Below are positions 33,695-51,650 of a stretch of DNA of 64,000 bases, piece after piece. The position numbers and the translations under genes are program-made. Below the pieces are notes generated by a model, which saw only the letters and a program-made list of their open reading frames with translations, did no database searches and was not told the origin of the DNA. This DNA is from Acidimicrobiia bacterium (GTDB lineage: Bacteria > Actinomycetota > Acidimicrobiia > Acidimicrobiales > MedAcidi-G1). Every line of letters begins with the position of its first letter. Position 1 is the first letter of the stretch. The DNA is taken from positions 124,001 through 188,000 of the forward strand of contig DUCC01000034.1 in the NCBI GenBank assembly GCA_012959995.1. The letters run 5' to 3'.

Positions 33695-34275
33695 TGGACG
33701 CTGCAGTTTTTCTCATTAGCGCCGTGGTGGTCCTGTCAGGGGCCGTCGGCGTGCTGTTGGCCCGCAACCCGATACACGCCGCCTTGTTTCTCGTAGAAAC
33801 CCTTTTCGGCATCGCCGTACTCTTCATCTTGTTAGACGCCACCTTTTTGGCCGCCGTTCAAGTAGTGGTGTACGCCGGAGCCATCGTCATTTTGTTTCTC
33901 TTCGTCATCATGTTGCTGGGCGTCGACCGAGCCGACGATCTAGGTATCGAACCCATCGCCGGCCAACGCCCCATGGCGGCCGTCATCGGAGCCTCTTTGC
34001 TGGGCCTCACCTTGACCACCTTGTTGATCGCCGTAAACGGCCCCACCGGAGACGCCGGGACCACCGCGGTACTCGGCAACGCCGAAACTAACACCCGTCT
34101 TTTAGGCGAAGCACTTTTTACCAACCACGTTTTTGCCGTAGAACTCACCGCACTTCTGTTGACGGTGGCCATTGTGGGAGCAGTAGTGCTGGCCCGCCGC
34201 ATTAGCGGGCCCCTGCAATCTCTACCCGGCGTAGCTATCGCCGTGGCCGACGATCAAGAAACCGAGGAGAACTAA
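33694..34275 (+). CDS. nuoJ: NADH-quinone oxidoreductase subunit J (first copy)
   Basis: A 193-residue, five-span NuoJ with [29 protein letters not shown] and [22 protein letters not shown], containing the pi-bulge helix of TM3. Start ATG 33694 overlaps the nuoI stop; the longer frame from 33625 lies inside nuoI. Confidence 0.93.
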
Positions 34276-34580
34276 TGGAGGTCACCACCACCTGGTACTT
34301 GGTTTTGGGAGCGGTGCTCTTTGCTTTGGGCACGGTCGGCGTTTTAACCCGCCGCAACCCACTAGTTATGTTCATGTGCGTTGAACTCATGCTCAACGCC
34401 GTCACCCTCACCTTGGTGGCCTTTGGCGCCGCCCTCGGCGACCTGGGCGGGCAAGTATCAGTGTTCTTTGTGCTGGTAGTAGCCGCCGCCGAAGTGGTCG
34501 TCGGTTTAGCAATCATCGTGGCCATAACCCGCCGCCGTCCCGGTACCACCGTGGACGATCTCTCGGTATTAGGAGGCTAG
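34275..34580 (+). CDS. nuoK: NADH-quinone oxidoreductase subunit K (first copy)
   Basis: A 101-residue, three-span Nuo[23 protein letters not shown] and [16 protein letters not shown] contain the two conserved membrane Glu of the proton path. Confidence 0.94.
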
Positions 34581-34584
34581 GAAC

Positions 34585-36918
34585 ATGCTTGACCTAGTTT
34601 GGCTAATTCCCGCTTTTCCCCTGGCCGGGTTTCTTTTCTTAATGGTCTTCGGCCGACGCTTAGGAGAACCCAAAGCAGGCTGGGTAGCTACCGCCGCCAT
34701 AGCTGGTTCGTTCGCTGCCACCTTGGGGGTGTTTCTCGAACTGACCTCCCTTTCGGTACATGACCGCCGCTCAGTAACCACCCTGTTCGCTTGGGTACCG
34801 GCCGGCGATTTTTCGGTTGACGTAGGTTTCTTGGTGGACCCTTTATCCATCACCATGTGCCTGTTCATCACCGGGGTGGGGGCACTCATCCACCTGTACT
34901 CCATTGGCTACATGCACGGCGACCAGGACTACAACAAGTTCTTCACCTACCTCAATCTGTTTGCTTTTTCCATGCTGATGCTGGTGCTGGGCAACAACAT
35001 GTTGTTGACTTTCCTGGGCTGGGAAGGCGTCGGAGCGTGTTCTTACCTGCTGATCTCTTTTTGGTTCGATAACGAAGCCAACGCCTCGGCCGGGAAAAAA
35101 GCGTTTGTTACCAACCGCATCGGCGACTGGGGTTTCATGGTGGCCATCTTCGCCACCTTTTTCACCTTCGGAACCGTCAACTACGCCGAGGTGCTCGACG
35201 CCACCGCTTCGGGCCAACTTTTACAGTCCACGGCCACCCTGATTGCCGTGATGCTCTTCATTGGCGCCATCGGCAAATCGGCACAGTTTCCGCTTTACCT
35301 CTGGCTGCCCGACGCTATGGCCGGCCCCACCCCCGTGTCGGCACTCATCCACGCCGCCACCATGGTCACTTCAGGCATCTACCTCCTGACCCGTATTAAC
35401 CCCATCATCGCCGATGCCGCCGACTGGCTCCCTACCCTTATTGCCTGGGTCGGGGTCGGCACCGCACTGTTTGCCGCCACCATCGCCGTGGCCCAAACCG
35501 ACATTAAAAAAGTGTTGGCGTACTCCACGGTGAGCCAACTTGGTTACATGTTTTTAGCGGTGGGTACCGGGGCCTATGTGGCCGCGGTATTCCACATGAT
35601 CACCCACGCTTTTTTCAAGGCGCTGCTTTTCTTGGGTTCCGGTTCGGTCATTCACGGTATGGACGGCCATCAAGATATGCGCCACTACGGCGGGCTACGC
35701 CGGTTGCTGCCCATTACCAGCGCCACCTTCATCGTGGGCTGGCTGGCCATAGCGGGCGTGCCCCCATTTTCTGGGTTTTGGTCTAAAGACGAAATCTTGT
35801 TGTTTGCCTGGAATGAATCCCCAGCGCTTTGGGCGGTAGGTTTTGTTACCGCCATTTTGACCGCCTTCTACATGACCCGCCAAGTCATCTTGACCTTCTT
35901 TGGCCGTTACCGCTTTGGCGACGTCCGGCCAGAAGAAATTGCCACCGCTTGGGAGGCACGTTTAACTGCCGCCACCGAAGCCATCGACACGGTTGGCGCA
36001 GATACAGACAAAGCCCGTACCGCCGTTGAAGCAGCGGTAACCGCCGCCGAAGCGGCCCGCATGGCGCTAACCGAGGCCCAAGCAGTAGCCACCGCAGAAC
36101 CCCTTGAAGGCCAAGAACCCGCCGACCCTGAAGCGCTGGCCGCGGCAGTGTTGGCCGCCGAAGACGCCGTAGTGACGGCCGACCAAAAAGTAGTAGAAGC
36201 CGAACGAGGGTTAGCGGCCGCCGAGGTTGCCCACGCCGAAGCAGTGGAAGCCCATCAACAAATAGTACGCCAAGCCGCCGACCGCCCAGCGGTGCCCGAA
36301 CTTGCTTTGGCCGCCGCCCCCGATACCACTGAAGTAGCCGACCACTTGCCGGTAGAAGTAGCCCAGCGCAACGAATATCATGCCCACGAATCACCATGGA
36401 CCATGACCTTGCCGTTGGTGGTGCTGGCGGTAGCGGCCGCCACCGCCGGGGTTATGCAGCTCCCGTTCTCGCCATCACTTAAACGCCTCGAGCACTGGTT
36501 GGAGCCCTCCCTGTTTGGCAACGAAGTACACCTCTCGGTAGCGACCAGCACCATGTGGATATTGGCTTTGGTGGCCATCGCTGGCGGTATCGCTGGCATC
36601 ACCTTGGCTATTGCCGCTTACCAAAAACGCAAAGTGGACTACACCATGTTTGAGCGCCCCATTTTGGCCGAGGCTTGGCAAGTAGATCGCCGGGTCAGTG
36701 ACTTTATGGGTGGCCCCGGAACCGCCGGCTTCGAAGCCACAGCCGGTTTCGACCAACGGGTGGTTGACGGCGCTGTCAACGGCACCGGCCGCTTGGTGCA
36801 ACGCTTGGCGCAAGGAGTTCGCCGCTTTCAAAACGGTCTGGTGCGCACCTACGCCGCCGGCATCGGGGTAGGGGCAGTGCTGCTTCTGCTTTGGTTCTTC
36901 ATGAGGTCAGGTATCTAA
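34585..36918 (+). CDS. nuoL: NADH-quinone oxidoreductase subunit L (first copy, with a long inserted helix)
   Basis: A 777-residue antiporter-like NuoL: FLGWEGVGACSYLLISFW, PLYLWLPDAMAGPTPVSALIHAATMV and KKVLAYSTVSQLGYM are standard. Between ILTFFGRYRFGD (ends near 446) and HAHESPWTMTLP (starts near 599) lies a block of about 150 residues rich in Ala, Glu and Val with heptad-like spacing, predicted to be a long coiled coil or helical hairpin. Ordinary NuoL is about 610-650 residues with a short loop here. TAATG overlap with nuoM. Confidence 0.94.
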   Translation: MLDLVWLIPAFPLAGFLFLMVFGRRLGEPKAGWVATAAIAGSFAATLGVFLELTSLSVHDRRSVTTLFAWVPAGDFSVDVGFLVDPLSITMCLFITGVGALIHLYSIGYMHGDQDYNKFFTYLNLFAFSMLMLVLGNNMLLTFLGWEGVGACSYLLISFWFDNEANASAGKKAFVTNRIGDWGFMVAIFATFFTFGTVNYAEVLDATASGQLLQSTATLIAVMLFIGAIGKSAQFPLYLWLPDAMAGPTPVSALIHAATMVTSGIYLLTRINPIIADAADWLPTLIAWVGVGTALFAATIAVAQTDIKKVLAYSTVSQLGYMFLAVGTGAYVAAVFHMITHAFFKALLFLGSGSVIHGMDGHQDMRHYGGLRRLLPITSATFIVGWLAIAGVPPFSGFWSKDEILLFAWNESPALWAVGFVTAILTAFYMTRQVILTFFGRYRFGDVRPEEIATAWEARLTAATEAIDTVGADTDKARTAVEAAVTAAEAARMALTEAQAVATAEPLEGQEPADPEALAAAVLAAEDAVVTADQKVVEAERGLAAAEVAHAEAVEAHQQIVRQAADRPAVPELALAAAPDTTEVADHLPVEVAQRNEYHAHESPWTMTLPLVVLAVAAATAGVMQLPFSPSLKRLEHWLEPSLFGNEVHLSVATSTMWILALVAIAGGIAGITLAIAAYQKRKVDYTMFERPILAEAWQVDRRVSDFMGGPGTAGFEATAGFDQRVVDGAVNGTGRLVQRLAQGVRRFQNGLVRTYAAGIGVGAVLLLLWFFMRSGI

Positions 36919-38528
36919 TGTCTTTTTCCTTATTGGCCTCGGCTAGCGCAGTGACCTTCCCGGTACTTCCGGCCCTTCTTTTGGTGCCTTTTGCCGGAGC
37001 ATTGCTGGTCATGGTGTTACCTCGCCAGCGCCCCGAACTATTCAAACTGGTGGCCGTGCTGACCTCGGTAGCGGTAATGGGGATGAGCTTTTGGGTGCTT
37101 TACGCTTTCGACACCCAGCACGGTGCTGATGGGTTCCAATTTTTAAGCAACCAAACCTGGATAGCCGATCTGGGCATCTCTTGGTCGTTTGGTATCGACG
37201 GCATCTCGCTCTTTTTGGTGGTGCTCACCGGGGTATTGTTTCCTATCGCTCTGCTGGCCACCGACCCGGCCCACGACAACCGGGCCTGGTACGGCTGGCT
37301 TTTGGTGTTAGAAGGCGGGGTCATGGGGGTGTTCCTCAGCCTCGACTTGGTGATGTTCTTCATCTGTTTCGAAGTGGTGCTGGTGCCCATGTACTTCCTC
37401 ATCGGCCGTTGGGGCCACGGCAACCGCACCTACGCCGCCACCAAATTCTTTCTCTACACCATGGCCGGCTCAGCGCTCATGCTGGTGGGCATTGTGGCTT
37501 TGGCCTTTTTGCATGCCGACGCCACCGGCGGCCCATTAACTTTCAACCTGATCGAGATTGCCGAAGCCCAAAGCCTGGCCACCGGCACCGCTCGCTGGAT
37601 TTTCTTAGCTTTCGCTTTGGCCTTCGCCGTCAAGGTGCCGATCTTTCCCCTCCATACTTGGCTGCCTGATGCCCACACTGAAGCCCCTACCGCTGGGTCG
37701 GTCATCTTGGCCGGGGTCATGTTGAAACTCGGTACTTACGGGTTTTTGCGTTTCGGTTTGTACTTGTTTCCGGAGGCCTCGCATTACTTTGCCCCGGTGT
37801 TTTTGACCCTCGGGGTGGTGGGCATTATTTATGGTGCTGTGGTGGCCGCCATGCAAGGCGACCTCAAACGCTTGGTGGCGTACTCCTCAGTGGCCCACCT
37901 TGGTTTCATCATCTTGGGTACCTTCGCCCTCAACACCGAAGGCATCGAAGGTGGCTTGCTGCAAATGGTCAACCACGGGGTGTCAACCAGTGCCCTGTTT
38001 TTGTTGGTGGGCATGATCTACGAACGTCGCCACACCCGTCAAATCAGTGAACTGGGCGGCTTGCAAAGGTCAGCGCCTATTTTGGCCGCCGTATTTACTG
38101 TGGTCATGTTGTCGTCCATTGGTTTGCCGGGCCTCAACGGTTTCGTGGGCGAGTTCTTAATCTTGCTGGGTACCTTTACCGCTCACCGTTGGTGGGCCAT
38201 GGTGGCGACCGCTGGAGTGATTTTGGCGGCCCTTTATTTACTGTGGGCCTACCAACGAGTGTTCCATGGTCCGGCGACCGGCGACAACGCCGAAATGCCC
38301 GACCTGACCCTGCGTGAAGGTATGGTGCTGGCCCCCTTGCTGGCTCTTATTATCTTTATGGGGGTTTACCCTCGGCCAGTAATCGAACGCATGGAACCGG
38401 CCGTTGATTCGTTGATCGAACATATTGAACTTCACGTCGAAGGATTTCACGAACCAGTAACCCGGGGCGGCGTAGACCTCGGTGAGGCTCCGGTAGTTGA
38501 GCACGCTGATGAAGGGGAGCACGAGTAA
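36918..38528 (+). CDS. nuoM: NADH-quinone oxidoreductase subunit M (first copy)
   Basis: A 536-residue antiporter-like NuoM with FEVVLVPMYFLIGRWGHGNRTYAA, KVPIFPLHTWLPDAHTEAPTAGSVILAGVMLKLG and LKRLVAYSSVAHLGF. The C-terminus adds an acidic tail of about 40 residues. Start ATG 36918 overlaps the nuoL stop; the frame to 36891 is inside nuoL. Confidence 0.95.
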   Translation: MSFSLLASASAVTFPVLPALLLVPFAGALLVMVLPRQRPELFKLVAVLTSVAVMGMSFWVLYAFDTQHGADGFQFLSNQTWIADLGISWSFGIDGISLFLVVLTGVLFPIALLATDPAHDNRAWYGWLLVLEGGVMGVFLSLDLVMFFICFEVVLVPMYFLIGRWGHGNRTYAATKFFLYTMAGSALMLVGIVALAFLHADATGGPLTFNLIEIAEAQSLATGTARWIFLAFALAFAVKVPIFPLHTWLPDAHTEAPTAGSVILAGVMLKLGTYGFLRFGLYLFPEASHYFAPVFLTLGVVGIIYGAVVAAMQGDLKRLVAYSSVAHLGFIILGTFALNTEGIEGGLLQMVNHGVSTSALFLLVGMIYERRHTRQISELGGLQRSAPILAAVFTVVMLSSIGLPGLNGFVGEFLILLGTFTAHRWWAMVATAGVILAALYLLWAYQRVFHGPATGDNAEMPDLTLREGMVLAPLLALIIFMGVYPRPVIERMEPAVDSLIEHIELHVEGFHEPVTRGGVDLGEAPVVEHADEGEHE

Positions 38529-40015
38529 TGTTGGCGCAAATAAACCAAATCGCTACCCCTGAGGTGCTGTGGTGGGCGCTGTTGCCACTGCTGTTTTTCT
38601 CGGTAAGCGCCGTCACCTTGCTTACCGTGGCTTCCTTGAAGCGTCAGATGCCGGCCTGCTGGGCCCCCGCCTGGACCATCACCGCAGCTCTCGCCACCTT
38701 GGTTTCGTTGGTCCCTCTGTGGCAAAAAGTAATGGACGAAGGTCCACGGTCTTTCTTAGGAGGCGCCGTAGGTGTAGACGGTGCTTCGCTGTTTATCACC
38801 GGAATATTGGCGGTCACCGTCTTAGCGACTGCCCTCTTGGCGCACCCTTATTTGAAACGCCAAGACCTCCCCGGTCTTGAGTTTTATGTGTTGCTACTTC
38901 TTTCGGCGGCCGGTGGGGTAGTGATGGCTTCAGCCAACGACCTCATCGTGTTGTTCCTAGGTATCGAAGTGTTGTCTCTCGCGGTGTACGTGTTGGCGGC
39001 CTACCACTTGCGCCGCATTGAGTCGCAAGAAGCGGCGCTCAAGTACTTTATTTTGGGGGCCTTCGCTTCGGCCTTCCTGCTTTACGGCATCGCCTTGGTG
39101 TACGGCGCCGTGGGGTCAACCAACCTGTCTGACATCAACGCTTGGCTGGCTCAAAACATTTTGGTAGAAGACGGGCTTTTGCTCGCTGGCTTAGCCATGC
39201 TGCTAGTTGGCCTAGGTTTCAAAGTAGCGGCTGCCCCCTTTCATGCCTGGACGCCTGATGTGTACCAAGGTGCTCCCAGCCCCGTAGTGGCTTGGATGGC
39301 CGCCGGGGTAAAAGCTGCCGGCTTCGCTGCTTTGCTCCGCGTTTTTGTGACGACCTTCGGTTCGTTCTCTGCCGACTGGCGCCCCGCCATGGCCGTGCTG
39401 GCCGGTGCCTCGGTACTGGTCGGTTCGTTAGGCGCCGCTTTGCAAACCGACGTCAAGCGTTTGTTGGCTTACTCTTCAGTAGCGCACGCCGGGTTTTTGC
39501 TCATCGGGGTCGAAGCGGCCACCGCACGCGGCACCAGCGCAGTCTTTTCTTATCTCGCTATCTACGCCCTGTTGGCTATCGGTAGTTTTGCCGTGGTCAC
39601 CTTGATGGGTGGTTCCGGTGACCAAAACCATCAACTGGAGGCCTACCACGGGTTAGGGGCACGCCAACCCTGGTTGGCTGGCGCCTTCACGGTGCTTTTG
39701 CTGGCCCAAGCCGGGGTGCCGCTTACCGCTGGCTTCGTCGCCAAGTTTGGGGTTATTGCTGCTGCCGCCGATGCCGGCTCCTGGTGGTTGGCGTCAGTCG
39801 CCATGTTGGCTACAGCTATCGCTGCTTTTGCTTACCTTCGGGTGGTGGTGGCCATGTACCTCAATGACTCTGCGAGCGACGAAACGATCACCGTGGATCG
39901 CACTACCTGCTGGGTAATTTCGGTGGCAGTCGCCCTGGTGATGCTCATCGGTTTGATGCCATCAATTTTGCTTGATGTAGCGCGTCAAGCCGTCCCTGTT
40001 TTGGTGGGTGGCTAA
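38528..40015 (+). CDS. nuoN: NADH-quinone oxidoreductase subunit N (first copy)
   Basis: A 495-residue NuoN: FLGIEVLSLAVYVLAAYHLR, EAALKYFILGAFASAFLLYG, KVAAAPFHAWTPDVYQGAPSPVVAWMA and VKRLLAYSSVAHAGF. Last gene of the 14-gene cluster, 123 bp before the second nuoA. TAATG overlap with nuoM. Confidence 0.95.
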   Translation: MLAQINQIATPEVLWWALLPLLFFSVSAVTLLTVASLKRQMPACWAPAWTITAALATLVSLVPLWQKVMDEGPRSFLGGAVGVDGASLFITGILAVTVLATALLAHPYLKRQDLPGLEFYVLLLLSAAGGVVMASANDLIVLFLGIEVLSLAVYVLAAYHLRRIESQEAALKYFILGAFASAFLLYGIALVYGAVGSTNLSDINAWLAQNILVEDGLLLAGLAMLLVGLGFKVAAAPFHAWTPDVYQGAPSPVVAWMAAGVKAAGFAALLRVFVTTFGSFSADWRPAMAVLAGASVLVGSLGAALQTDVKRLLAYSSVAHAGFLLIGVEAATARGTSAVFSYLAIYALLAIGSFAVVTLMGGSGDQNHQLEAYHGLGARQPWLAGAFTVLLLAQAGVPLTAGFVAKFGVIAAAADAGSWWLASVAMLATAIAAFAYLRVVVAMYLNDSASDETITVDRTTCWVISVAVALVMLIGLMPSILLDVARQAVPVLVGG

Positions 40016-40138
40016 GGTGGTTAATTTCTTCTCAGTAACCCCTCAGAGTGCCCGCTCATCGGTTAGCCTCTTTGCCGTACCCGTAACTTGGGGTGCGATG
40101 TTGGCCTTATCCCCTCTCAATCGTTAGGTTCAGTTTCT
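40016..40138. promoter_or_regulatory. Gap between the two complex I clusters
   Basis: The only gap over 50 bp in the 26-kb double nuo block. It holds a weak hairpin (GGTTA 40019-40023 with TAACC) but no T-tract, no Rex-like palindrome and no convincing -35/-10 pair. It may contain the promoter of the second cluster; I cannot place it. Confidence 0.3.
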
Positions 40139-40504
40139 GTGTCCGACTTTCTTCGCAGCTGGTTAACGCTGGTCCTCTTTGGGGGTCTTGCCGTGCTGTT
40201 AGTTGGGGCGTTCTTAGGCCTCTCAAGTTTGATTCGCCCACAACGCGATACCGAACAAAAAGGCATCAACTATGAAAGCGGCGTGGACCCGCAAGGCGAC
40301 ATGTGGAGCCAGTCCAACATTCGCTACTACGTGTTCGCTTTGATGTTCGTCCTCTTCGACGTGGAAGCGGTATTCATTTTCCCTTGGGCCACCCGTCTAG
40401 AAACTTACGGCGTGTTCGGCTTGGTAGAAATGGCCATCTTCATTTTCATCTTGGCTTTGGGTTTGGTTTACGCCTGGCGGAAAGGCCTCCTGCGATGGGT
40501 TTAG
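40139..40504 (+). CDS. nuoA: Complex I-type subunit A (second copy)
   Basis: A 121-residue NuoA with three spans, [14 protein letters not shown] (the loop Cys of NuoA is Ser here) and [22 protein letters not shown]. Start GTG 40139 gives MSDFLRSW; an ATG at 40088 in frame lacks homology upstream. The protein lacks the C-terminal extension of the first copy. It overlaps nuoB2 by 10 bp. Confidence 0.92.
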
Positions 40505-40995
40505 TAGAAAACGGCAAACTCCCCAAGCCGCTCACCGCTTTGCTCAACGTGAGCCGCAAGTATTCTCTGTGGGTTTACCAATGGGGTTTGGCTTGCTGCG
40601 CTATCGAAATGGGCGCGGCCTTTGCTTCTCCTCGCTACGACGTGATGCGCTTAGGGGTTATCCCGTTTCCGGCCAGCCCTCGTCAAGCCGACATGGTGGT
40701 TATCTCCGGCACGGTGACCGACAAAATGGCTCCGGTAGTGCGCCGCCTCTACGAGCAAATGCCGGAACCAAAATATGTGATCTCCATGGGTTCATGCGCT
40801 AACTGTGGCGGCCCCTACTGGGACAGTTACTCGGTAACCAAAGGCGTGGATCAAGTTATTCCGGTAGATGTTTACGTCCCCGGCTGCCCTCCTCGCCCCG
40901 AAGCACTCTTAGAAGGCATCGTTTTGTTGCAAGAACGCATCGCCTCAGAAGACATGACCGAACGTTGGAACGGTGATCCTCTTGTCGTCACCTGA
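40495..40995 (+). CDS. nuoB: Complex I-type subunit B (second copy)
   Basis: A 166-residue NuoB with N2 ligands Cys34-Cys35 ([10 protein letters not shown]), Cys101 and Cys131 ([10 protein letters not shown]). The middle motif is [11 protein letters not shown], with an extra Cys104 absent from the first copy ([10 protein letters not shown]). Start ATG 40495 lies in the end of nuoA2. Confidence 0.93.
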
Positions 40996-41002
40996 TACGC
41001 CC

Positions 41003-41653
41003 GTGACCGAAGAAGAAACCGCAGCACCCGAGGCAGACGCCGCTCGGGATGCTTTGGTAGCCACCCTGGCCGAAGCCTTAGGCGACGGCCTGGTAGCCAG
41101 CGAAGTAAAAGCCGGGGTCGACGTTTGGGTACGAGTAACCAGCCAGGCTTGGGTCGAAACCGCTCAGGTGTTGCGCAACCAGTGCGGCATGAAGTACTTC
41201 AACTTCCTTTCGGTTATTGACTGGCTGCCTTCGCCCTTTGGCCGCGACATGGACGCCCAAGTTGACCAACCCGACCCCGTGGAACCCGGCGAAATGACCT
41301 GGGGTATCACCGGCGGGCAAACCCGTTTTCAAATGCTGGCTCGTTTGCACGACCCCGTGAACCACGTAGGCATCAACATCAAAGCAGACATTGATGATGA
41401 ACAACTCGCTGTTGACTCTTGGATAGCGGTTTACCCCGGCGCCGACTGGCACGAACGCGAAGCCGCCGAAATGTTTGGCGTGCACTTCACCGGTCACCCC
41501 AACTTGACCAAGCTGTACTTGCCGGGAGCCTTCGAAGGAAACCCCATGCGTAAAGACTTCCCCCTGCTGGCCCGACGGGTAAAACCGTGGCCCGGCTTGG
41601 TGGACGTTGAACCGTTGCCTGGCGAAGACGATGACGAAACGGAGGCCTCATGA
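41003..41653 (+). CDS. nuoC: Complex I-type subunit C (second copy)
   Basis: A 216-residue NuoC with CGMKYFNFLSVIDWLPSPFGRD and WHEREAAEMFGVHFTGHPNLTKLYLPGAFEGNPMRKDFPL. I prefer GTG 41003 (MTEEETAAPEAD), which parallels the first copy's [11 protein letters not shown] and lies 7 bp after nuoB2; GTG 40973 (226 residues, overlapping nuoB2) is possible. ATGA overlap with nuoD2. Confidence 0.9.
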   Translation: MTEEETAAPEADAARDALVATLAEALGDGLVASEVKAGVDVWVRVTSQAWVETAQVLRNQCGMKYFNFLSVIDWLPSPFGRDMDAQVDQPDPVEPGEMTWGITGGQTRFQMLARLHDPVNHVGINIKADIDDEQLAVDSWIAVYPGADWHEREAAEMFGVHFTGHPNLTKLYLPGAFEGNPMRKDFPLLARRVKPWPGLVDVEPLPGEDDDETEAS

Positions 41654-42822
41654 ACAAGGCCACCGACACCCAGCAGCTGGCCTACATCGCCGGCCAAGCA
41701 GCCGACGCTCGGGTTAATTTAGAAATTGAAACCGAGGGCATGATCCTCAACATCGGCCCGCAGCACCCGGCCACTCACGGCACCCTGCGCATCATTGTAA
41801 AACTTGATGGTGAACAAGTAATGTCGGCCGACCCCATGATGGGTTACATGCATCGGGGCTACGAAAAGCTTTCCGAAGTACGCACCTACCCGCAGGTCAC
41901 GGCCCTCATTAACCGCATCGACTGGTTGGGGAGTTTCGCCAACGAGGTGCCGTTCATTCAGGCCGCCGAAAACCTTATGGAAGTTGAAGCTCCGCCTCGC
42001 GCCCAGTGGATACGTACCGCATTGTTCGAAATGTCTCGCATCGCCAACGTGGTGTTGTTCTTAGGCGACATGGGCGTGCAACTCGGTGCGGTGACCCCCG
42101 TGTTCTTCGCTTTCCGGGACCGCGAGTTCATTCTCAACCAAATCGAAGCAGTAACCGGCGGGCGTTTTCACCCCAACTTCAACCGCATCGGCGGCCTTAA
42201 AGACGACCTGCCCAAGGGTTGGATCGAAGAAACCCGAGGCGTGCTCGGCCGCATCCGCGACTTCTGCGACGAAATCGAAACCCTGGTCGCCGGCAACGAA
42301 ATCTTCCAAGCCCGTACCCGCGGCATTGGTATTATCCCGGCCGACGTGGGCTTGGCCTACGGCTTGTCGGGCGCCAACATTCGCTCCAGCGGCGTTGATT
42401 GGGACATTCGCCGCGACGGAGGCATCGGCTTGGTGCACAACGAACTGGACTGGAAAGTCTGGACCCACCCCGATGGCGACTCTTTTGCTCGTTTCTGGGT
42501 GCGTCTGCAAGAAGTACGCGAATCATGCACCATGATCGAACAAATCTTGGATGGCATTCCTGCCGGGCCTGTTATGGCCAAAGTGCCTCGCATTATCAAA
42601 GTGCCGGCCGGTGAATCTTACGTAGAAACCGAAAACCCATTGGGGGTTATGGGCTACTACATCGTTTCTCAAGGTGACCTCACCCCATTTCGCGTCAAGA
42701 TCCGTTCGGCTTCGTTTAACAACGTGTCTATTACCCCGTGGCTCCTTAAAGGGGTCTACGTGCCCGACGTGGTTTCCATTCTGGCCAGCCTGTATTTCAT
42801 CCTCGGAGATATCGACCGATGA
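41650..42822 (+). CDS. nuoD: Complex I-type subunit D (second copy) with Trp at the quinone Tyr position
   Basis: A 390-residue NuoD: PQHPATHGTLR holds the quinone-site His43. Forty-nine residues on, where NuoD proteins keep an invariant Tyr (Tyr109 in the first copy), the sequence is NRIDWLGSF, so Trp92. Twenty-six residues after the His, MGYMHRGYEKL has Arg69, the equivalent of the Arg methylated by NDUFAF7 in mammalian NDUFS2; the first copy has Thr. This is thus a distinct quinone site. The methyltransferase gene closes the same cluster. Confidence 0.94.
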   Translation: MNKATDTQQLAYIAGQAADARVNLEIETEGMILNIGPQHPATHGTLRIIVKLDGEQVMSADPMMGYMHRGYEKLSEVRTYPQVTALINRIDWLGSFANEVPFIQAAENLMEVEAPPRAQWIRTALFEMSRIANVVLFLGDMGVQLGAVTPVFFAFRDREFILNQIEAVTGGRFHPNFNRIGGLKDDLPKGWIEETRGVLGRIRDFCDEIETLVAGNEIFQARTRGIGIIPADVGLAYGLSGANIRSSGVDWDIRRDGGIGLVHNELDWKVWTHPDGDSFARFWVRLQEVRESCTMIEQILDGIPAGPVMAKVPRIIKVPAGESYVETENPLGVMGYYIVSQGDLTPFRVKIRSASFNNVSITPWLLKGVYVPDVVSILASLYFILGDIDR

Positions 42823-43850
42823 CGCTGATTCTGGCCGAGATGGCTTACTGGCAAGAAACCTCTATCCGCTTGTTAGTCGGCCTGGCTGCCGTATTGCTGC
42901 CCGCCGGCACGCTGGTTTACCTCTTCTTGTTCAAAATGATGAGCTTCATGCAGAGCCGTTTGGGCCCTATGGAAGCCGGCCCTTACGGGTCGATGCAGTT
43001 GCTGGCCGAGGTCGGTAAATTCTTGCAAAAAGAAGACATCATCCCTCGCGCCGCCGACCGTTTGGTCTTCAAACTGGCGCCCTTCGTGGTGCTGGTTTCT
43101 ACCTTTTTGTTGGTGCTGGTTATTCCTGCCGGCCCCGACCTGTGGTTCATTGACGTGGACACCGGCATCTTCTTAGCCTTAGCCGTGTCTTCCATTTCGG
43201 TTATCGGCATCTTGATGGCCGGGTGGGCTTCGGCCTCTAAATATTCTTTGATGGGCGCATTGCGGGCCACCGGTCAACTCATTGCTTACGAACTTCCCAT
43301 GGTGCTTGCCGTGGTTGGGGTGGTTATTCAAGCGGGCACCCTCAACGTGCAAAATATTGTCCTGGCTCAAGCAACCGGCGAAATATTTGGCTTCGGCGGC
43401 ATCGGCAACCCATTTATTTTCACTCAGTTCTTAGGTTTTGCGATCTTTTTGATTGCCGTCCAAGCAGAACTCACCCAGCCTCCTTTCGACATGCCGGTCG
43501 CTGAATCAGAGTTAGTAACCGGCTACCTCACCGAATATTCGGGTTTGCGTTTCTTGATGTTCTTCATTGGCGAATTCGCCACCGCCGGTATTTTCTCGGC
43601 CCTGGCCGCCACCTTGTTCTTAGGCGGCTGGTACGTGCCGGGCTTAGACCCCACCGATGGTTTGTTTAACGTCATCGGCCCTGCGGTGCTTTTCGCCAAA
43701 ATGCTGCTGGTGGCTTTCTTGATATTCTGGTTCCGCTTCACCTACCCTCGCTTTCGTGAGGACCAACTGCAAAAGTTGGCTTGGAAGGTGCTTATCCCAT
43801 TGTCGTTGATCAACATTGTGATCACCGGCGTGTTGAAGGTGATGTTCTAA
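42819..43850 (+). CDS. nuoH: Complex I-type subunit H (second copy)
   Basis: A 343-residue, eight-span NuoH with [36 protein letters not shown] and [27 protein letters not shown]. It differs from the first copy in the tunnel loop ([13 protein letters not shown] versus NRPPFDLVEAEQE). ATGA overlap with nuoD2: no E, F or G lies between D and H. Confidence 0.94.
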
Positions 43851-44359
43851 TGGCGACCAAAATCAAAATCCCCGGGATGATCAAGGGCCTCGGGGTTACC
43901 TTCAAAACGATGGTGCGTACCTTGACCAAAGGTTCACACACCGTGCAATACCCGCACGTAAAAGAAGCCCCCACTGCTCGAGCCCGTGGGGTAATTGCCC
44001 TCCACGAAGAAAACTGCACCTCATGCATGCTGTGCGCCCGTGAATGCCCCGACTGGTGTATCTACATCGAAGGACACAAATACAAAGCGCCACCCCGTCG
44101 CCCCGGCGGCAAGCCCCGTAAAAAGAACGCCCTCGACCGCTTCGACATTGACTACTCGTTGTGCATGTACTGCGGTATTTGCGTAGATGTGTGTCCCTTC
44201 GAAGCCTTGTTCTGGACCCCCGAATACGAATATTCCGAACTAAAAATTGCCAACTTGTTGCACGACAAAAACCAGTTAGGTAAATGGATGGAAACGGTGC
44301 CTGAGTTCGAAGACTACGAAGCAGGCAGCGAAGCCAAGAAAGCCCAGGTGCCCAAGTGA
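43850..44359 (+). CDS. nuoI: Complex I-type subunit I (second copy)
   Basis: A 169-residue NuoI with cluster motifs Cys56, 59, 62, 66 ([11 protein letters not shown]) and Cys105, 108, 111, 115 ([11 protein letters not shown]). Between them lies a basic segment ([14 protein letters not shown]) absent from the first copy, which could be a docking surface for an acidic electron donor. Start ATG 43850 (TAATG). Confidence 0.93.
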
Positions 44360-44901
44360 ACCTGTTGGCCCAAGTGAACGATTTCAACCCTCTGTTGAGC
44401 GGCGAAGTGGTGGTGGCGCAAAATATTGCTTTCACCATTTTGGCGGCCATCATGCTGGTTAGTGCCTTGCGTTTGGTCACCACCCGCAACGTGGTCCACG
44501 CCGCTCTGTACCTGGTGTTGGTGTTGGCCGGAGCGGCCGGCATCTTTATTTTGTTGGGCGCCGAGTTTGTGGGCGTTACCCAAATAATGGTTTACATCGG
44601 GGCCATCGTGGTGCTGTTTTTGTTCGGCATCATGTTGACCCGGGGTGCCCTAGGCACCGAAGAAGAAGGCAACAAAGAACCCCGCCTGATGGCTTCTTTG
44701 GTCGCCGGCTTGTTGGTAGTTGTTATGGGCGGTGCGCTCATCGATACCTTCGGCGACGCCGAGTTGTTGCGTTCCGCACCCAGCACGACCGCCGAAATTA
44801 GTGACAGTATTTTTAGCCAGTACATCGTGCCGTTCGAAGCAACCTCGGTGTTGTTGTTGGCGGCTTTAATTGGGGCCATCGTGGTGGCCAGAAAGGACTG
44901 A
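44356..44901 (+). CDS. nuoJ: Complex I-type subunit J (second copy)
   Basis: A 181-residue NuoJ, five spans, with [32 protein letters not shown] and [27 protein letters not shown] 44356 overlaps the nuoI2 stop. Confidence 0.93.
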
Positions 44902-44902
44902 C

Positions 44903-45202
44903 ATGTTTTTGAACCAGTTCCTTCTGCTTTCTGTGGCACTTTTTGCTATTGGCGTGTACGGCGTGTTGGCTCGCCGCAACGGGGTCATGGTGCTCATGTC
45001 TATTGAGCTGATCCTGAACGCCGTCAACATCAACTTGGTTTCTTTCGCTGCTTTCACCGAAAACATAGCGGGCGAAGTATTTGCTCTCTTCGTGGTCGCC
45101 GTAGCGGCCGCCGAAGTAGGGGTGGGCTTAGCCATGATCTTGCTCTTGTACCGCAACCGACGAAACATTGATCTCACCGAGATCGATCTGATGAAGGGTT
45201 AA
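44903..45202 (+). CDS. nuoK: Complex I-type subunit K (second copy)
   Basis: A 99-residue, three-span NuoK with LARRNGVMVLMSIELILNAVNINLV and AAAEVGVGLAMILLLYRNRR, containing both conserved membrane Glu residues. ATG 44903 follows nuoJ2 by 1 bp. Confidence 0.93.
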   Translation: MFLNQFLLLSVALFAIGVYGVLARRNGVMVLMSIELILNAVNINLVSFAAFTENIAGEVFALFVVAVAAAEVGVGLAMILLLYRNRRNIDLTEIDLMKG

Positions 45203-45206
45203 TGCT

Positions 45207-47474
45207 ATGACCGACCTATTCATCTTCGCTTCGGCTACCGCTGAGCTTGCAGAAACCGTTTTACCTTTGGGTATCACCGAAGGCGGAGCGTGGTTGCTGC
45301 GCAACGCTTGGATAATCCCGTTGATACCTGCCCTGTCTTTCGTAGGCATTTTGTTCTTTGGCAAGCGCATGCCTCGCCAAGGCGCCGAACTGGGCGTGGC
45401 GGCTATCGGTATCGCTTTTGTTTTAGCGGTACTCACCGGCGCCGCTTGGATGGATCACCGCGACAACTATCAGGGCGACGAGGTAACTCAAGCGGTGATA
45501 GTGGCCGACCACGGCGAGGCTGCCGATCACGATGAAGGGCACGCCCCCGAGCATCCTTCGCTGGCCGTAAGCAACACCGTGACTTGGTTCCAGGTGGGCG
45601 GCATGACCATATCGGTGGGCGTTCTGGTCGACGGCTTAGCGGTCATGATGCTTTTCGTGGTGACCTTAGTGTCGCTCTTGGTGCACGTTTACTCCACTGA
45701 TTACGTCAGCGGCGATAGGCGCTACACCCATTACTTTGCTTTCCTGTCGCTGTTTAGTGCCTCCATGCTGACCCTGGTTATTTCAGAAAACACCCTGCAA
45801 CTCTTGGTGGCTTGGGAACTTGTTGGCGTGTGTTCGTTTGCCCTCATTGGCCACTGGTGGGAAGAAAAACCCAACAGCGATGCTGCGTTGAAAGCTTTCT
45901 TAACCAACCGGGTAGGCGACATGGGCCTCTTGGTAGGCATCACCGTGCTGTTCTTCTCCGTTGGTTCGGCGCTGCCTGACGCTTTCGGCTCGTTCTCTAT
46001 CGCCACCACCAACACGCTGGCCAACTCGGGCCTGTTATCGCACACCGCTCTGTTGGTATCGGCGACCTGCCTTATGGCTGCCGTTATGTCTAAGTCTGGC
46101 CAGTTTTTCTTACACACCTGGTTGCCCGACGCTATGGCCGGGCCCACCCCTGTTTCGGCCCTCATCCACGCCGCCACCATGGTGGTAGCCGGGGTATTCA
46201 TGATCGCTCGCCTGTACGGCGTGTTCTTCGAAGGGTTCTCCATTGGCGGGTCATCCATCAACCTGATGGCCGTAGTGGGCGGGCTTACTACTTTGGTCGG
46301 TGCTTCGCTGGCTTTCGTGCAACGCGACATCAAAAAAGTTTTGGCCTACTCCACCATTTCTCAATTGGGTTACATGGTGTTGGCTTTGGGCGTCGGGGCC
46401 TGGACAGCCGCCGTGTTCCACTTGTTCACCCACGCTTTCTTTAAGGCCTGCTTGTTCTTGGGCTCCGGTTCGGTAGCTCACGCCGTGCACAGTTTCGACA
46501 TGAAATCCGACATGGGTGGCATGCGTAAAGCCATGCCGCAGACCTACCGGACCTTCGTCATCGGTTCTATCGCCTTGGCTGGGTTGCCTCCGTTGGCCGG
46601 CTTTTGGTCGAAAGACGAAATCTTGGCCGGCACCGGCGGTTGGGGCCTCTTTGGAGGCACCGGCGGTAACGGGGCCTACACCGGCATGCTGATCATGGGC
46701 ATGGTGACCGCCGCATTGACCGCTGCCTACATGACCCGAGTCATTTACTTAACCTTCTTTGGCGACTTCCGCGGCCACGGCGAACTCCACGAATCTGGCC
46801 CCCGCATGGTGGTGCCTTTGTGGATTCTGGCCGGTTTGGCCATGGTGGCCGGTTTATTCAACCTGCCTTCCGGCTTTCAACTGGTGCCCGAATCAATGCA
46901 AGAACGTTTCGGCCATTACGTTGAACCAGCGGCCGCTTACTTCCCGGGCATTAGCCACGCCTCACCTTCATGGTCGCTGGCTATTTTCTCCACTTTGGTG
47001 GTGATGGCCGGTGCGGGCTCCGCTTACTGGTACTACTTTGTCAAAGTGGATGCCGCCGCCCAAGCCTCGGGCCAAAGCCTGACCGAACTTAGCAACGGCC
47101 CTACCAGTCGTTGGCCGCTGGCCAAAATGGGCCACAACCTGCTCGAGAACAAGTACTACCTCGACCATCTCTACACCGGCATTATCGCCGGAGGCACCAA
47201 GGGACCGCTGGCCCGTGCCGTCTACCGCTTCAACCAACAGGTCATTGACCGCACTGTCGACAAAGTCGGCGAAACTGCGGTGGTGTCTGGTCAGTTTGTC
47301 TACGACAAAATTGACCAATTGTTAGTTGACGGTGCCGTTAATACCTCGGGGCGTCTTGCTTCTGAGGCTGGCGGAGAACTTCGTAAAATTCAATCCGGGA
47401 AGGTCCAAAGCTACGCAGCGATATTGTTTGCTGCCGCTACGGTACTCGCCGGGATTTTGATCGTCATCGTTTAG
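45207..47474 (+). CDS. nuoL: Complex I-type subunit L (second copy)
   Basis: A 755-residue NuoL with VAWELVGVCSFALIGHWW, LHTWLPDAMAGPTPVSALIHAATMV and KKVLAYSTISQLGYM. It lacks the coiled-coil block of the first copy. Instead an external loop near residues 100-115 is dense in His, Asp and Glu (DHGEAADHDEGHAPEHP). A long amphipathic C-terminal part (about residues 610-740) ends in a final span, as in NuoL with its lateral helix. Confidence 0.94.
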   Translation: MTDLFIFASATAELAETVLPLGITEGGAWLLRNAWIIPLIPALSFVGILFFGKRMPRQGAELGVAAIGIAFVLAVLTGAAWMDHRDNYQGDEVTQAVIVADHGEAADHDEGHAPEHPSLAVSNTVTWFQVGGMTISVGVLVDGLAVMMLFVVTLVSLLVHVYSTDYVSGDRRYTHYFAFLSLFSASMLTLVISENTLQLLVAWELVGVCSFALIGHWWEEKPNSDAALKAFLTNRVGDMGLLVGITVLFFSVGSALPDAFGSFSIATTNTLANSGLLSHTALLVSATCLMAAVMSKSGQFFLHTWLPDAMAGPTPVSALIHAATMVVAGVFMIARLYGVFFEGFSIGGSSINLMAVVGGLTTLVGASLAFVQRDIKKVLAYSTISQLGYMVLALGVGAWTAAVFHLFTHAFFKACLFLGSGSVAHAVHSFDMKSDMGGMRKAMPQTYRTFVIGSIALAGLPPLAGFWSKDEILAGTGGWGLFGGTGGNGAYTGMLIMGMVTAALTAAYMTRVIYLTFFGDFRGHGELHESGPRMVVPLWILAGLAMVAGLFNLPSGFQLVPESMQERFGHYVEPAAAYFPGISHASPSWSLAIFSTLVVMAGAGSAYWYYFVKVDAAAQASGQSLTELSNGPTSRWPLAKMGHNLLENKYYLDHLYTGIIAGGTKGPLARAVYRFNQQVIDRTVDKVGETAVVSGQFVYDKIDQLLVDGAVNTSGRLASEAGGELRKIQSGKVQSYAAILFAAATVLAGILIVIV

Positions 47475-47486
47475 GAGACGGCCAGT

Positions 47487-49127
47487 ATGGAAAATTTGCT
47501 TGACAGTTGGGGCTTAACGGCCGCCACCTTCGTACCAATGTTGGGGGTGGCGCTCATGATGTTCGTCCCCAAAGAAAAAGAGGATCTGCATAAAAAGATC
47601 GCTCTGGCCACCTCGTTGGTGGTGGCTGCCATTGGGGTGCTGCTCTTAGTGCAGTTTGATCTTGGTGCCACGGGGCAGTTGCAGTTTGCTGTGGACCACA
47701 TGTGGATCGACGTCATAAACAGCCACTACGCCATGGGCCTCGACGGCATGTCGCTGCCGTTGGTGTTGCTAACCATGCTGGTGGTGCCTTTGTGCATCGT
47801 CTACTCGTGGGATCATTTCCCGTCCCCATCTAACCCCAAAGCCTTCTTGATGCTGATCTTGGTTCTAGAAACCGGCATGATCGGCACCTTTATGGCTCAA
47901 GACTTGGTGCTGTTCTTCGTGTTCTTCGAAGTGGTGCTGTTGCCCATGTTCTTCATGATCGCCGTGTGGGGCGGCGAAGACCGCCGCTACGCCTCGTTGA
48001 AGTTCTTCTTGTACACCTTGTTCGGTTCAGCACTTATGTTGGTGAGCTTCTTGTCGCTGTACTTTTTGTCGGGTGCCGAATCGTTCGTTCTCACCGACCT
48101 CGCCCAGGCAGTAGCCGAGAACGGTATTTCTCGCACCGCCGGACTATGGATCTTTGGCGGCATGTTGTTGGGCTTCGGCATCAAGGTACCTATGTTCCCC
48201 TTCCACACCTGGTTGCCTGACGCTCACACTCAGGCCCCGACCGTCGGTTCGGTCATCTTGGCCGCCGTGTTGTTGAAACTCGGCACCTACGGCTTTATTC
48301 GCATCGCTATTCCCGTGTTGCCAGAAGCCGCCGTGGAATGGGCTCCTTGGATCGGCCTGTTGGCGGTAGTGGGCATCATCTACGGTGCCTTGGGCTGTTT
48401 GGCACAAACCGACATGAAGCGCCTGATCGCTTTTTCATCGGTCGCTCACATGGGTTTCGTCATGTTGGGCATTTCTACCCTCACTGATTTCGGCATTAAC
48501 GCCGCCATCATGGGCATGGTGGCCCACGGTTTGATCACCGGCATGTTGTTCTTCATCGCTGGGTCGATCAAAGAGCGCTACCACACCTTAGATATTGCCC
48601 GCTTGGGTGGCTTGTTGCTTAAAGCCCCTCGTATGGGTTGGATTCTCGGTTTGAGCGTTATGGCTTCGTTGGGTCTGCCTGGTTTGGCTGGCTTCTGGGG
48701 CGAGTTCCCTGCCATTTTGTCCACCTACAACCCGGCTAACGGCCTGCCTGTAGAGACCTTCCGCACTTACATGGTGATCTCTGCTTTGGGCACCGTGTTG
48801 GCCGCCGGCTACCTGCTGTGGCTATTGCAACGCACCGCCTTTGGTACCCCCACCGAAGAGTTTGCTGACCTAGATATTCCTGACGTAACCCGTCACGAGT
48901 GGATTGCCTGGACCCCTATGATCGCTTTGATCTTAGCTATCGGTATTTACCCCAACTTGATTTTCCGGGTGACTGATGGGGCGGTAGATGCTTCGCTTAA
49001 CGAATGTTTGCAAGTAAACACCCAAGAAATGTCGGCCGAAGATATCGAAGCTTTGCATTGCGCCCCGGTTTACAACTTGGGTAGCGGCGGGCATGTGGTA
49101 GATGAACACGCAGTGAGCGGAGACTGA
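47487..49127 (+). CDS. nuoM: Complex I-type subunit M (second copy)
   Basis: A 546-residue antiporter-like NuoM with FFEVVLLPMFFMIAVWGGEDRRYA, KVPMFPFHTWLPDAHTQAPTVGSVILAAVLLKLG and MKRLIAFSSVAHMGF. TTTAGGAGACGG precedes the ATG. The C-terminal tail (EMSAEDIEALHCAPVYNLG) is longer than usual. Confidence 0.94.
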   Translation: MENLLDSWGLTAATFVPMLGVALMMFVPKEKEDLHKKIALATSLVVAAIGVLLLVQFDLGATGQLQFAVDHMWIDVINSHYAMGLDGMSLPLVLLTMLVVPLCIVYSWDHFPSPSNPKAFLMLILVLETGMIGTFMAQDLVLFFVFFEVVLLPMFFMIAVWGGEDRRYASLKFFLYTLFGSALMLVSFLSLYFLSGAESFVLTDLAQAVAENGISRTAGLWIFGGMLLGFGIKVPMFPFHTWLPDAHTQAPTVGSVILAAVLLKLGTYGFIRIAIPVLPEAAVEWAPWIGLLAVVGIIYGALGCLAQTDMKRLIAFSSVAHMGFVMLGISTLTDFGINAAIMGMVAHGLITGMLFFIAGSIKERYHTLDIARLGGLLLKAPRMGWILGLSVMASLGLPGLAGFWGEFPAILSTYNPANGLPVETFRTYMVISALGTVLAAGYLLWLLQRTAFGTPTEEFADLDIPDVTRHEWIAWTPMIALILAIGIYPNLIFRVTDGAVDASLNECLQVNTQEMSAEDIEALHCAPVYNLGSGGHVVDEHAVSGD

Positions 49128-49129
49128 CC

Positions 49130-50635
49130 GTGACTGCGCAACTGCTCGCCTTGGCCTTTGAAAGGCCAGCCATTGATTGGCATGCGGTGGCCCCCGAGTT
49201 GGTGCTGTTAACCGCCGGGTGTCTCATCACCTTGGCCGACATCATCTTTTTAGAAAAAGCCCGGTCCTTTACCGCTGCTTTGGCCGGGTTGGGTGTGCTG
49301 GCTACCGCCATTCCGCTCATTACCTTGGCCAGCAGTGGCGCCGACCGAGTGCTGTTCGGTGGAGCGTACGTGGTTGACGACTTTGCGCTTATCACCAAAG
49401 CTATTTTCTTAATGGCCGGTTATGTAGTGATTTTGCTCTCTACCAACTATGTGGCCGAAGGCGATTATTGGGAAAACGAATATTACGGCCTGTTGCTGGC
49501 TTCGCTTATGGGCATGATCATGATGGCCTCCTCTCGGGACTTGATTTCGATCTTCGTGGCCTTGGAACTGTTGTCGATCCCCGCTTATTTGATGGTGGCT
49601 TGGCGCAAGGGCGATGCCCGCTCCAACGAAGCCGGTTTGAAGTATTACCTCATGGGGGTGTTCGCTTCGGCGGTCATGCTCTACGGCATGTCGCTGCTCT
49701 TCGGGTTGGCGGGTTCTACCCAACTCACGGAGATCGCTACTGCGGTGGCTTCGGGTGCCGCCTCAACATCGGCCACCACTTTGGCCATTGTCTTTATCAT
49801 CGCTGGGTTTGCTTTTAAAGTTTCGGCGGCCCCGTTTCATACCTGGGCTCCTGATGTTTATGAAGGCGCCCCCACCCCGGTGACGGCGTTTCTTTCGGTG
49901 GCCTCAAAAGCTGCTGGCTTTGTGGCTATCTTGCAATTGCTTTACGTGGGTTTCTACGGTCGAGCCGATGTCTACGAACCGTTGATCTGGATTTTGGCCG
50001 CGGCGTCTATGACCTTGGGCAACCTGGTGGCTTTGCGCCAAACCAACATGGTGCGCCTCATGGCTTACTCCGGGGTGGCCCAAACCGGGTTTATTATCGC
50101 CCCGCTGGCCGTGGCCGGTCACGCCGGGTTAGGCGATCAAGCGTTGTCTACCGTGGTGACCTACTTGGCTATTTACGCTGCCATGAACTTGGGGGCTTTT
50201 GCGGTCATCATCACCTTGTCTCGCAAAACTGGTTCGGCAGAGCTCAGCAGCTTTGGTGGGGCCTTTAGTTACGCTCCGGGGCTGACCGTGGCCATGAGCT
50301 TCTTTTTGTTCTCGCTGGCGGGTATTCCTCCGTTGGGCGGCTGGTTCGCCAAATTTGAGGTGTTCCGAGTATTGACCTCGGCCGGCGACTTCTGGGGCTA
50401 CTCCTTAGCGGTGATCGCTGCTGTGAACTCGGTGATTGCCTTGTATTACTACGCTGGTATTGCGCGCCGCATGTGGGCCGATGACGCTCCAGAAGGCGAT
50501 TTGGCTCCGGTGCCCACCACCCCGTCGCTGGTTATCGCTTTGGCTATTTGCGCCGGCGTTACCTTGGCCTTTGGTGTGGTGCCACAAATAGTGGCTCGCT
50601 TCACCGACGTGAGCCTGCTGGCCCTCGGGGGCTGA
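49130..50635 (+). CDS. nuoN: Complex I-type subunit N (second copy)
   Basis: A 501-residue NuoN with FVALELLSIPAYLMVAWRKGD, EAGLKYYLMGVFASAVMLYG and KVSAAPFHTWAPDVYEGAPTPVTAFLSVASK. GTG 49130 lies 2 bp after nuoM2. Last subunit gene of the 11-gene cluster; the methyltransferase gene begins at its stop. Confidence 0.94.
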   Translation: MTAQLLALAFERPAIDWHAVAPELVLLTAGCLITLADIIFLEKARSFTAALAGLGVLATAIPLITLASSGADRVLFGGAYVVDDFALITKAIFLMAGYVVILLSTNYVAEGDYWENEYYGLLLASLMGMIMMASSRDLISIFVALELLSIPAYLMVAWRKGDARSNEAGLKYYLMGVFASAVMLYGMSLLFGLAGSTQLTEIATAVASGAASTSATTLAIVFIIAGFAFKVSAAPFHTWAPDVYEGAPTPVTAFLSVASKAAGFVAILQLLYVGFYGRADVYEPLIWILAAASMTLGNLVALRQTNMVRLMAYSGVAQTGFIIAPLAVAGHAGLGDQALSTVVTYLAIYAAMNLGAFAVIITLSRKTGSAELSSFGGAFSYAPGLTVAMSFFLFSLAGIPPLGGWFAKFEVFRVLTSAGDFWGYSLAVIAAVNSVIALYYYAGIARRMWADDAPEGDLAPVPTTPSLVIALAICAGVTLAFGVVPQIVARFTDVSLLALGG

Positions 50636-50636
50636 C

Positions 50637-51650
50637 ATTAATGGCTTAGCCGAACGGCTGGCCGCCCGGTGCCGCGCTGGCGGGCCGCTAGATTTTTCTG
50701 CTTGGGTTGAGGCTTGCCTGTACGACCCCGACTTTGGCTTTTATGTTTCTGGCGGTTCGGCGGGTCGCCGGGGGGATTTTATTACCAGCCCCGAAGTAGG
50801 CCCGTTGTTTGGCGCCGTGCTGGCGCGGTGGTTGGACAAACGGTGGGCGGCTATGGGGGAGCCTGATGGGTTTACGGTAGTTGAGGTAGGAGCAGGCCCA
50901 GGGACGTTGGCTCGGGCTGTTTTGGCGGCCCAACCGGCGTGCCTGGCAACCGGCCGCTACGTGACGGTAGAGGTTTCGGCAGCTCAACGGGCCCTTCACC
51001 CTGATGGGGTAGATGCCTTGGCCGAAATGCCGGCCGGGCCTCTTGTTGGGGCAGTGGTGGCCAACGAGTTGCTAGACAACTTGCCGTTCGGCGTGTTGGC
51101 GGCCGATGGAGAGTCTTGGCGGCCGGTACAGGTAACGGTGGAGGGAGATGAATTCTTCGAGGTGCTGGGCGACCCGGTGAACCCACCGGTTGCTTTGCCG
51201 CCAGTGGCCGGCCAGCGCATACCTACCCAAGCAGCGGCAGCCCAATGGGTTGCCGGGGCTTGGGCTTCACTGGCGCCTGGAAGCAGCCTGCTGGTTGTTG
51301 ACTATTGCGCGACCACAGCCCAGATGGCCCAGAAGTCCTCTTGGTTACGCACCTACCGCAACCATCAGCACGGTGGATCGCCGCTGGACTATCTAGGTAG
51401 CCAAGACATCACCACCGAAGTGGCGGTGGATCAACTCCCCGGCCAACCGGAGGTAGGCACGCAACTTGACTGGTTACAAGCCAACGGCGTCGATGACCTC
51501 GTAGCGGAAGGTCGCCGCATTTGGGAACAACGAGCCGGAGTGGCCGACCTAGCGGCCCTCAAAGCCCGCAGCCGCATCAGCGAAGCCGAAGCACTCTTAG
51601 CCCCCGACGGTCTCGGCGCCTTCCAAACCCTTACCTGGACAACCCCCTAA
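50637..51650 (+). CDS. MidA/NDUFAF7-family (DUF185) SAM-dependent methyltransferase, apparent ATT start
   Basis: About 337 residues with GPLDFSAWVEACLYDPDFGFY near the N-terminus, GDFITSPEVGPLFGAVLARW, the SAM motif VEVGAGPGTLARAVL and VVANELLDNLPF: all MidA hallmarks. In mitochondria NDUFAF7 dimethylates an Arg of NDUFS2 (NuoD) and is needed for complex I assembly. The family N-terminus lies upstream of the first ATG, GTG or TTG in frame (TTG 50805); the frame opens at 50613, and ATT 50637, one base after the nuoN stop and 6 nt after GGGG, is the best start. A frameshift or CTG 50658 are alternatives. Confidence 0.85.
   Translation: MNGLAERLAARCRAGGPLDFSAWVEACLYDPDFGFYVSGGSAGRRGDFITSPEVGPLFGAVLARWLDKRWAAMGEPDGFTVVEVGAGPGTLARAVLAAQPACLATGRYVTVEVSAAQRALHPDGVDALAEMPAGPLVGAVVANELLDNLPFGVLAADGESWRPVQVTVEGDEFFEVLGDPVNPPVALPPVAGQRIPTQAAAAQWVAGAWASLAPGSSLLVVDYCATTAQMAQKSSWLRTYRNHQHGGSPLDYLGSQDITTEVAVDQLPGQPEVGTQLDWLQANGVDDLVAEGRRIWEQRAGVADLAALKARSRISEAEALLAPDGLGAFQTLTWTTP

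Follow-up and report, generated by a model that had tools for sequence, protein, structure and literature searches.

A MidA/NDUFAF7-family methyltransferase gene beside the second complex I cluster of an actinobacterial genome, and its candidate substrate NuoD2

The two nuo clusters and the midA gene

The window, which is the whole stretch of 64,000 nucleotides that was analysed, lies in a genome of 2.03 Mb; among named genomes, Acidimicrobiales MAGs are its nearest relatives. It carries two complete nuo clusters arranged in tandem. The genes of the second cluster overlap or are separated by gaps of 2-12 bp. Its last gene, nuoN2, is followed after one base by midA, and midA is followed after 105 bp by acs. 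The features are listed below in order of position.

24421..40015, + strand: nuo cluster 1, NuoA to NuoN, 14 subunits
24927..25538, + strand: nuoB1; Arg89 (codon 25191-25193) is equivalent to Thermus Nqo6 Arg83
26077..27372, + strand: nuoD1; Thr86 at the switch position, no possible substrate at that site
40088..50635, + strand: nuo cluster 2, A, B, C, D, H, I, J, K, L, M and N (11 subunits), without E, F and G
40495..40995, + strand: nuoB2; Thr73 (codon 40711-40713) is the reciprocal partner of NuoD2 Arg69
41650..42822, + strand: nuoD2, the proposed substrate (PF00346; aligned to solved NuoD chains)
41776..41778, + strand: codon of NuoD2 His43, the quinone-site His (Thermus His38), by alignment
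41854..41856, + strand: CGG codon of NuoD2 Arg69, the proposed methylation site, equivalent to bovine Arg85 and Yarrowia Arg121
50627..50639, + strand: Shine-Dalgarno-like GGGGG, nuoN2 TGA, one base and ATT start, read from the sequence
50637..51650, + strand: midA, MidA/NDUFAF7-family SAM-dependent methyltransferase of 337 aa (PF02636, phmmer, AlphaFold model)

Two further observations concern the surroundings of these genes. NuoL1 (34585-36918) has an insertion of ~130 residues in its C-terminal half, Ala/Glu/Val-rich when read by eye, which is perhaps a long helical region. An M48 peptidase gene (54336-55217) lies downstream of the second cluster, beyond midA, acs and one HAD gene.

The initial annotation placed a MidA homologue one base past the last gene of the second cluster, and this was confirmed: the nuoN2 TGA occupies 50633-50635, midA begins at 50637, and its product matches PF02636 with 92.8 bits (cut-off 23.3; residues 61-267 on profile positions 1-233). 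midA is the sole PF02636 gene of the genome. A phmmer search with its product finds 1zkd, 4f3n and 5ztz, the last of which is the Dictyostelium NDUFAF7 homologue. The AlphaFold (AF2) model has a pLDDT of 94 and matches 4g67, 4f3n, 5ztz, 5zu0 and 1zkd with Z 31-33 and rmsd 2.4-2.5 over 311-321 residues (Z 32 for Dictyostelium MidA 5ztz), and the best unrelated methyltransferase reaches Z 13.9. The family motifs sought were the SAM-binding glycine motif, GDF.TSPE and NE..D.LP; GDFITSPE, VVEVGAGPGTLAR and ANELLDNLPF are present and conserved among relatives. Close relatives keep the SAM-binding motif EVGAGPGTLAR in their MidA. The product of midA is a true MidA-family protein.

The midA frame contains no ATG, GTG or TTG before 50805, so the start was assigned to the ATT at 50637. 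The ATG at 50641 was rejected as the true start, its frame ending after two codons. The arrangement GGGGG/GGAGG/GGGAG, CTGA, any base and ATT/ATC is found at 17 family loci from several genera (the window, L003-L016, L018 and L021), of which 8 have ATT and 9 have ATC. In sister genera, midA has an in-frame ATG at +18 or +32. Judged from these loci, a non-canonical midA start appears to be conserved, which would be unusual.

The NuoD arginine and the switch at cluster N2

NDUFAF7 methylates Arg85 of NDUFS2 early in complex I assembly and probably helps NDUFS2 to join NDUFS7 (PMC3829151). In Paracoccus denitrificans, Nqo4 is symmetrically dimethylated at the equivalent Arg65 (PMC3750175). In the window, Arg69 of NuoD2 lies within MGYMHRGYEK, 26 residues past His43, as had been described from the sequence alone. 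NuoD1 carries Thr86 (counted from the ATG at 26077; Thr87 from the upstream TTG; codon 26332-26334), again 26 residues past its own His, and this part of the description also stands. NuoD2 resembles NDUFS2 in its HRGxEK motif and in the equal spacing from the quinone His, which in the bovine protein we take to be His59, with Arg85 as far from it as Arg69 is from His43. Arg is present at this position in all 43 aligned NuoD2 sequences (42 relatives and the window). In an ungapped alignment, Thermus Nqo4 has Thr opposite Arg69 and Tyr87 opposite Trp92.

The second of these differences departs from the canonical quinone site, as Trp92 (codon 41923-41925) occupies the position of the quinone-binding Tyr87 of Thermus. 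Trp is found there in 87 of the 88 scored Arg-type NuoD sequences, and the cluster of the single sequence with Tyr (L088) has NuoF and NuoG. The 11-subunit complex may use quinone in other than the usual way.

The Arg/Thr difference is part of an inter-subunit switch. Yarrowia has NDUFS2 Arg121 with NDUFS7 Thr122, Thermus has Nqo4 Thr with Nqo6 Arg83, and the two arginines occupy one space beside N2 (PMC8042128). NuoB1 Arg89 aligns with Nqo6 Arg83 without gaps and pairs with NuoD1 Thr86, which is the Thermus state, and NuoD2 Arg69 with NuoB2 Thr73 is the Yarrowia or mitochondrial state. Reciprocity was observed in 56/56 scorable actinobacterial clusters (44 NuoB-Thr/NuoD-Arg, 12 NuoB-Arg/NuoD-Thr, none with the same residue on both subunits), a set that represents fewer than 56 independent cases owing to overlap of some loci. 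Outside this set are truncated or unscored genes and three clusters of family f53 with Trp on NuoB. The reciprocity is perfect with or without MidA; therefore, the NuoD2 Arg belongs to its N2 site type, methylated or not. On the clusters compared, Arg in NuoD goes with cluster N2 and can be dissociated from methylation. The earlier statement that only one NuoD carries the target Arg thus stood for the residues, and it had to be qualified in that the Arg/Thr pattern is mirrored in NuoB1 and NuoB2, so that the difference is not specific to methylation. At another site of NuoB, the hydroxylated Arg77 of mammalian PSST (FRASPRQ), NuoB2 has Pro (FPASPRQ) and NuoB1 retains FRASPRQ.

Distribution and position of midA in the phylum

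The survey covered 296 genomes of one phylum. The NuoD residue was called by the DNA pattern GxxH[R/T]GxEK and corrected by locus reading; MidA was called by PF02636, which is present in 78/296 genomes, and then corrected by a broader MidA profile. The resulting counts are as follows.

Arg-type NuoD with MidA: 77 genomes
Arg-type NuoD without MidA: 24 genomes (leaving out G178, with nuoD2 at a contig end)
Thr-only NuoD with MidA: 3 genomes
Thr-only NuoD without MidA: 48 genomes

The other genomes gave no match, gave hydrogenase-like matches or had unread loci, and 18 genomes with pattern matches stand outside the table. The table also excludes, as possible group 4 hydrogenases, the HRG matches of f47, f60, f67, f48 (except G069), f32 and similar families. 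Arg-type NuoD is present in 77 of the 80 MidA-bearing genomes, spread over 27 families. The Fisher odds ratio is 51 (p 1e-17) by genome and 27 (p 1e-6) when collapsed to families, so that the correlation which the initial annotation proposed to look for is present in this phylum.

Within-family contrasts weigh more than these totals because the genomes are not independent. In f29, 11 genomes have Arg and a midA unlinked to nuo2, and the sole Thr-only genome has no midA. The contrasts within f34 and f58 agree with the link, f38 is mixed, and f61 disagrees, as G128 has MidA without Arg. In the order of the window, genomes with Thr-only NuoD or without NuoD lack MidA, bar two apparent exceptions (G003 and G178). 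Several apparent exceptions were rejected. In G003 and G178, nuoD2 lies at the edge of a contig. A nuoD2 is missing from G019, where the contig stops 7 kb past nuoD1. In G062, MidA is broken into frameshifted pieces, and the MidA adjoining nuoD2 in G298 is divergent; PF02636 missed both. Six f35 genomes scored as MidA without Arg have a NuoD with HRAAEK, which is outside the DNA pattern. MidA without Arg-type NuoD is left in three genomes (G128, G235 and G282). In the last, a Thr-type NuoB2-like gene adjoins midA (L060, G282:C21) and is perhaps a remnant of a lost nuo2 cluster.

The distances of MidA and NuoD2 are also matched (Mantel r 0.90, 0/2000 permutations). Both this and the co-occurrence partly owe something to shared ancestry and one operon. 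PF02636 matches were also found in the control genomes Caulobacter, Synechococcus and Haloferax, and the family is not only proteobacterial. A 2018 Cell Reports paper reportedly describes a proteobacterial origin of MidA.

midA adjoins nuo2 through most of the window's order. Among the 80 loci of named relatives fetched by the MidA profile, midA is directly 3' of nuoN2 in 68 and farther off in 5, and 7 have no NuoN, mostly near contig ends. Other arrangements include midA between nuoN1 and nuoA2 (G040, locus L031) and midA next to a lone nuoD2, the two being encoded on one strand or on opposite strands. In Streptomyces-like f46 (genomes of 6-10 Mb; name inferred), f35, f58 and f73, nuo2 consists of A-B-C-H-I-J-K-L-M-N without nuoD, as read in eight genomes in which contig ends cut some clusters. 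The Arg-type nuoD2 of these genomes is on another contig or far off and adjoins midA in varying orientations (loci L242-L250, L252, L052-L057 and L072-L079); in G063 the pair is ~200 kb from nuo2. As nuoD2 and midA are kept together with the rest of the operon elsewhere, this arrangement suggests that MidA is partnered with NuoD2 itself and not with the complex as a whole. An enzyme-substrate pair dedicated to the 11-subunit complex had been proposed from the window; the dedication is supported by co-occurrence and linkage, and the likely partner is narrowed to NuoD2.

Arg-type NuoD is also found without MidA. Five families that are Thermoleophilia-like by inference (f37, f52, f59, f66 and f81) and genome G050 have Arg-NuoD2 in an ordinary nuo2 and no MidA by profile search; the few weak matches in these families (E ~1e-4) are short and cover the SAM-binding part. 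A Pfam scan 3' of nuo2, made at loci from G050 and from four Thermoleophilia-like genomes, found no replacement methyltransferase. An M48 peptidase is there instead at three of the loci scanned, and the Thermoleophilia-like M48 gene lies directly 3' of nuoN2 (L036:14147-15205, L045:13598-15076 and L048:5490-6368). Its presence in both settings suggests a common ancestral neighbourhood; the Thermoleophilia-like genomes may have lost midA from it. E. coli has the Arg unmethylated (PMC3750175). The 24 Arg genomes without MidA and E. coli show that Arg alone does not imply methylation; the predictor may be MidA rather than Arg. NuoD2 of these 24 genomes should be unmethylated, and the mark would then be dispensable for this type of complex, since these genomes keep Arg-NuoD2 and have no detectable MidA.

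Proposed function of MidA and its meaning

The best explanation is that MidA symmetrically dimethylates Arg69 of NuoD2, in the 11-subunit complex alone, and thereby aids NuoB2 docking and the stability of N2; we give this a probability of roughly 0.78. The family, the fold, the gene position, the residues, the NuoB/NuoD switch, the co-occurrence and the nuoD2-midA pairing behind it are direct observations. With SAM as methyl donor, MidA would act on NuoD2 that is still free or partly assembled, before it joins NuoB2. Methyl-Arg69 would help NuoD2 to dock on NuoB2, and cluster N2 would be stabilised. The 14-subunit complex would be independent of MidA because its NuoD1 carries Thr at this position and NuoB1 Arg89 provides the arginine that faces N2.

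MidA could instead be a dedicated NuoD2 assembly factor that works through binding, or through modification of a different residue of NuoD2 or NuoB2, with Arg69 not a target. This is unlikely, and it is the strongest of the alternatives. It would account for the pairing with nuoD2, which is the best-supported fact, and the Arg69 kept in Thermoleophilia-like genomes without MidA indicates that the Arg needs no methylation. However, nearly all Thr-only genomes lack MidA, which fits Arg as the target, close relatives conserve the SAM-binding motif, and the characterised relative modifies exactly that residue (PMC3829151).

A substrate unrelated to complex I, such as DNA or another protein, with the site 3' of nuoN2 reflecting operon hitch-hiking, is less probable still. 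Wolbachia MidA is reported to methylate cytosine and adenine in E. coli, a result that its authors call preliminary (PMC12455994). The three genomes that have MidA without Arg-NuoD also fit such a substrate, as do 30 of the 77 Arg+MidA genomes, which have no Arg-type nuoD within 20 kb of midA by hand count. In the other 47, however, no more than 20 kb separates midA from an Arg-type nuoD, and the varied arrangements go beyond one inherited operon. That the NuoD contrast is the N2 switch only and the MidA-nuo2 link a lineage accident is very improbable: reciprocity regardless of MidA, Arg-type complexes without MidA and the unmethylated E. coli Arg (PMC3750175) agree with it, but MidA with Arg-NuoD in 27 families and the relocated nuoD2-midA pairs would be left unexplained.

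The proposed dimethylation of Arg69 by MidA has its closest parallel in the action of NDUFAF7/MidA (PF02636, COG1565) on NDUFS2 Arg85. The enzymes are alike in family and full-length fold, and their identity is only ~20-27%. The methylation reaction is carried over here from the mitochondrial enzyme, as are its symmetry, timing and effect on N2. In contrast to the NDUFAF7 system, the complex that contains the candidate substrate has 11 subunits and lacks NuoEFG, midA adjoins the gene of its candidate substrate, and a second complex without the target Arg is encoded for the same cell. Paracoccus Nqo4 is a bacterial precedent for the symmetrically dimethylated Arg; unlike the window, it represents an alphaproteobacterial enzyme near mitochondria, and the accessible part of PMC3750175 describes no second complex with the opposite residue. 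Unlike Thermus or Yarrowia, both switch states are found here in one genome, and MidA accompanies only one of them.

Published work already covers the enzyme and the residue that it modifies, the presence of this modified residue in a bacterium, and the Arg/Thr switch. In the open-licence literature, we found no description of a nuo operon that includes midA, of a genome holding both switch states in which MidA is linked to just one, or of nuoD2 and midA relocated as a pair. The genomic evidence argues strongly that a known enzyme-substrate pair is found here in a new setting.

It is conceivable, as a tentative extension, that the two isoforms stand on opposite sides of the switch, that the methyltransferase is dedicated to the Arg-NuoD isoform and stays with nuoD2, and that methyl-Arg tunes N2 with non-standard quinone reduction, the last because this isoform has Trp for the quinone-binding Tyr. 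In mitochondria, separating the role of the arginine from that of its methylation was left for the future (PMC8042128). Actinobacteria offer natural contrasts for this, having Arg with MidA, Arg without MidA and NuoD Thr with NuoB Arg, often with two states per cell, and their midA is a separate gene adjoining its likely substrate. These findings also suggest that MidA in bacteria extends beyond the proteobacteria.
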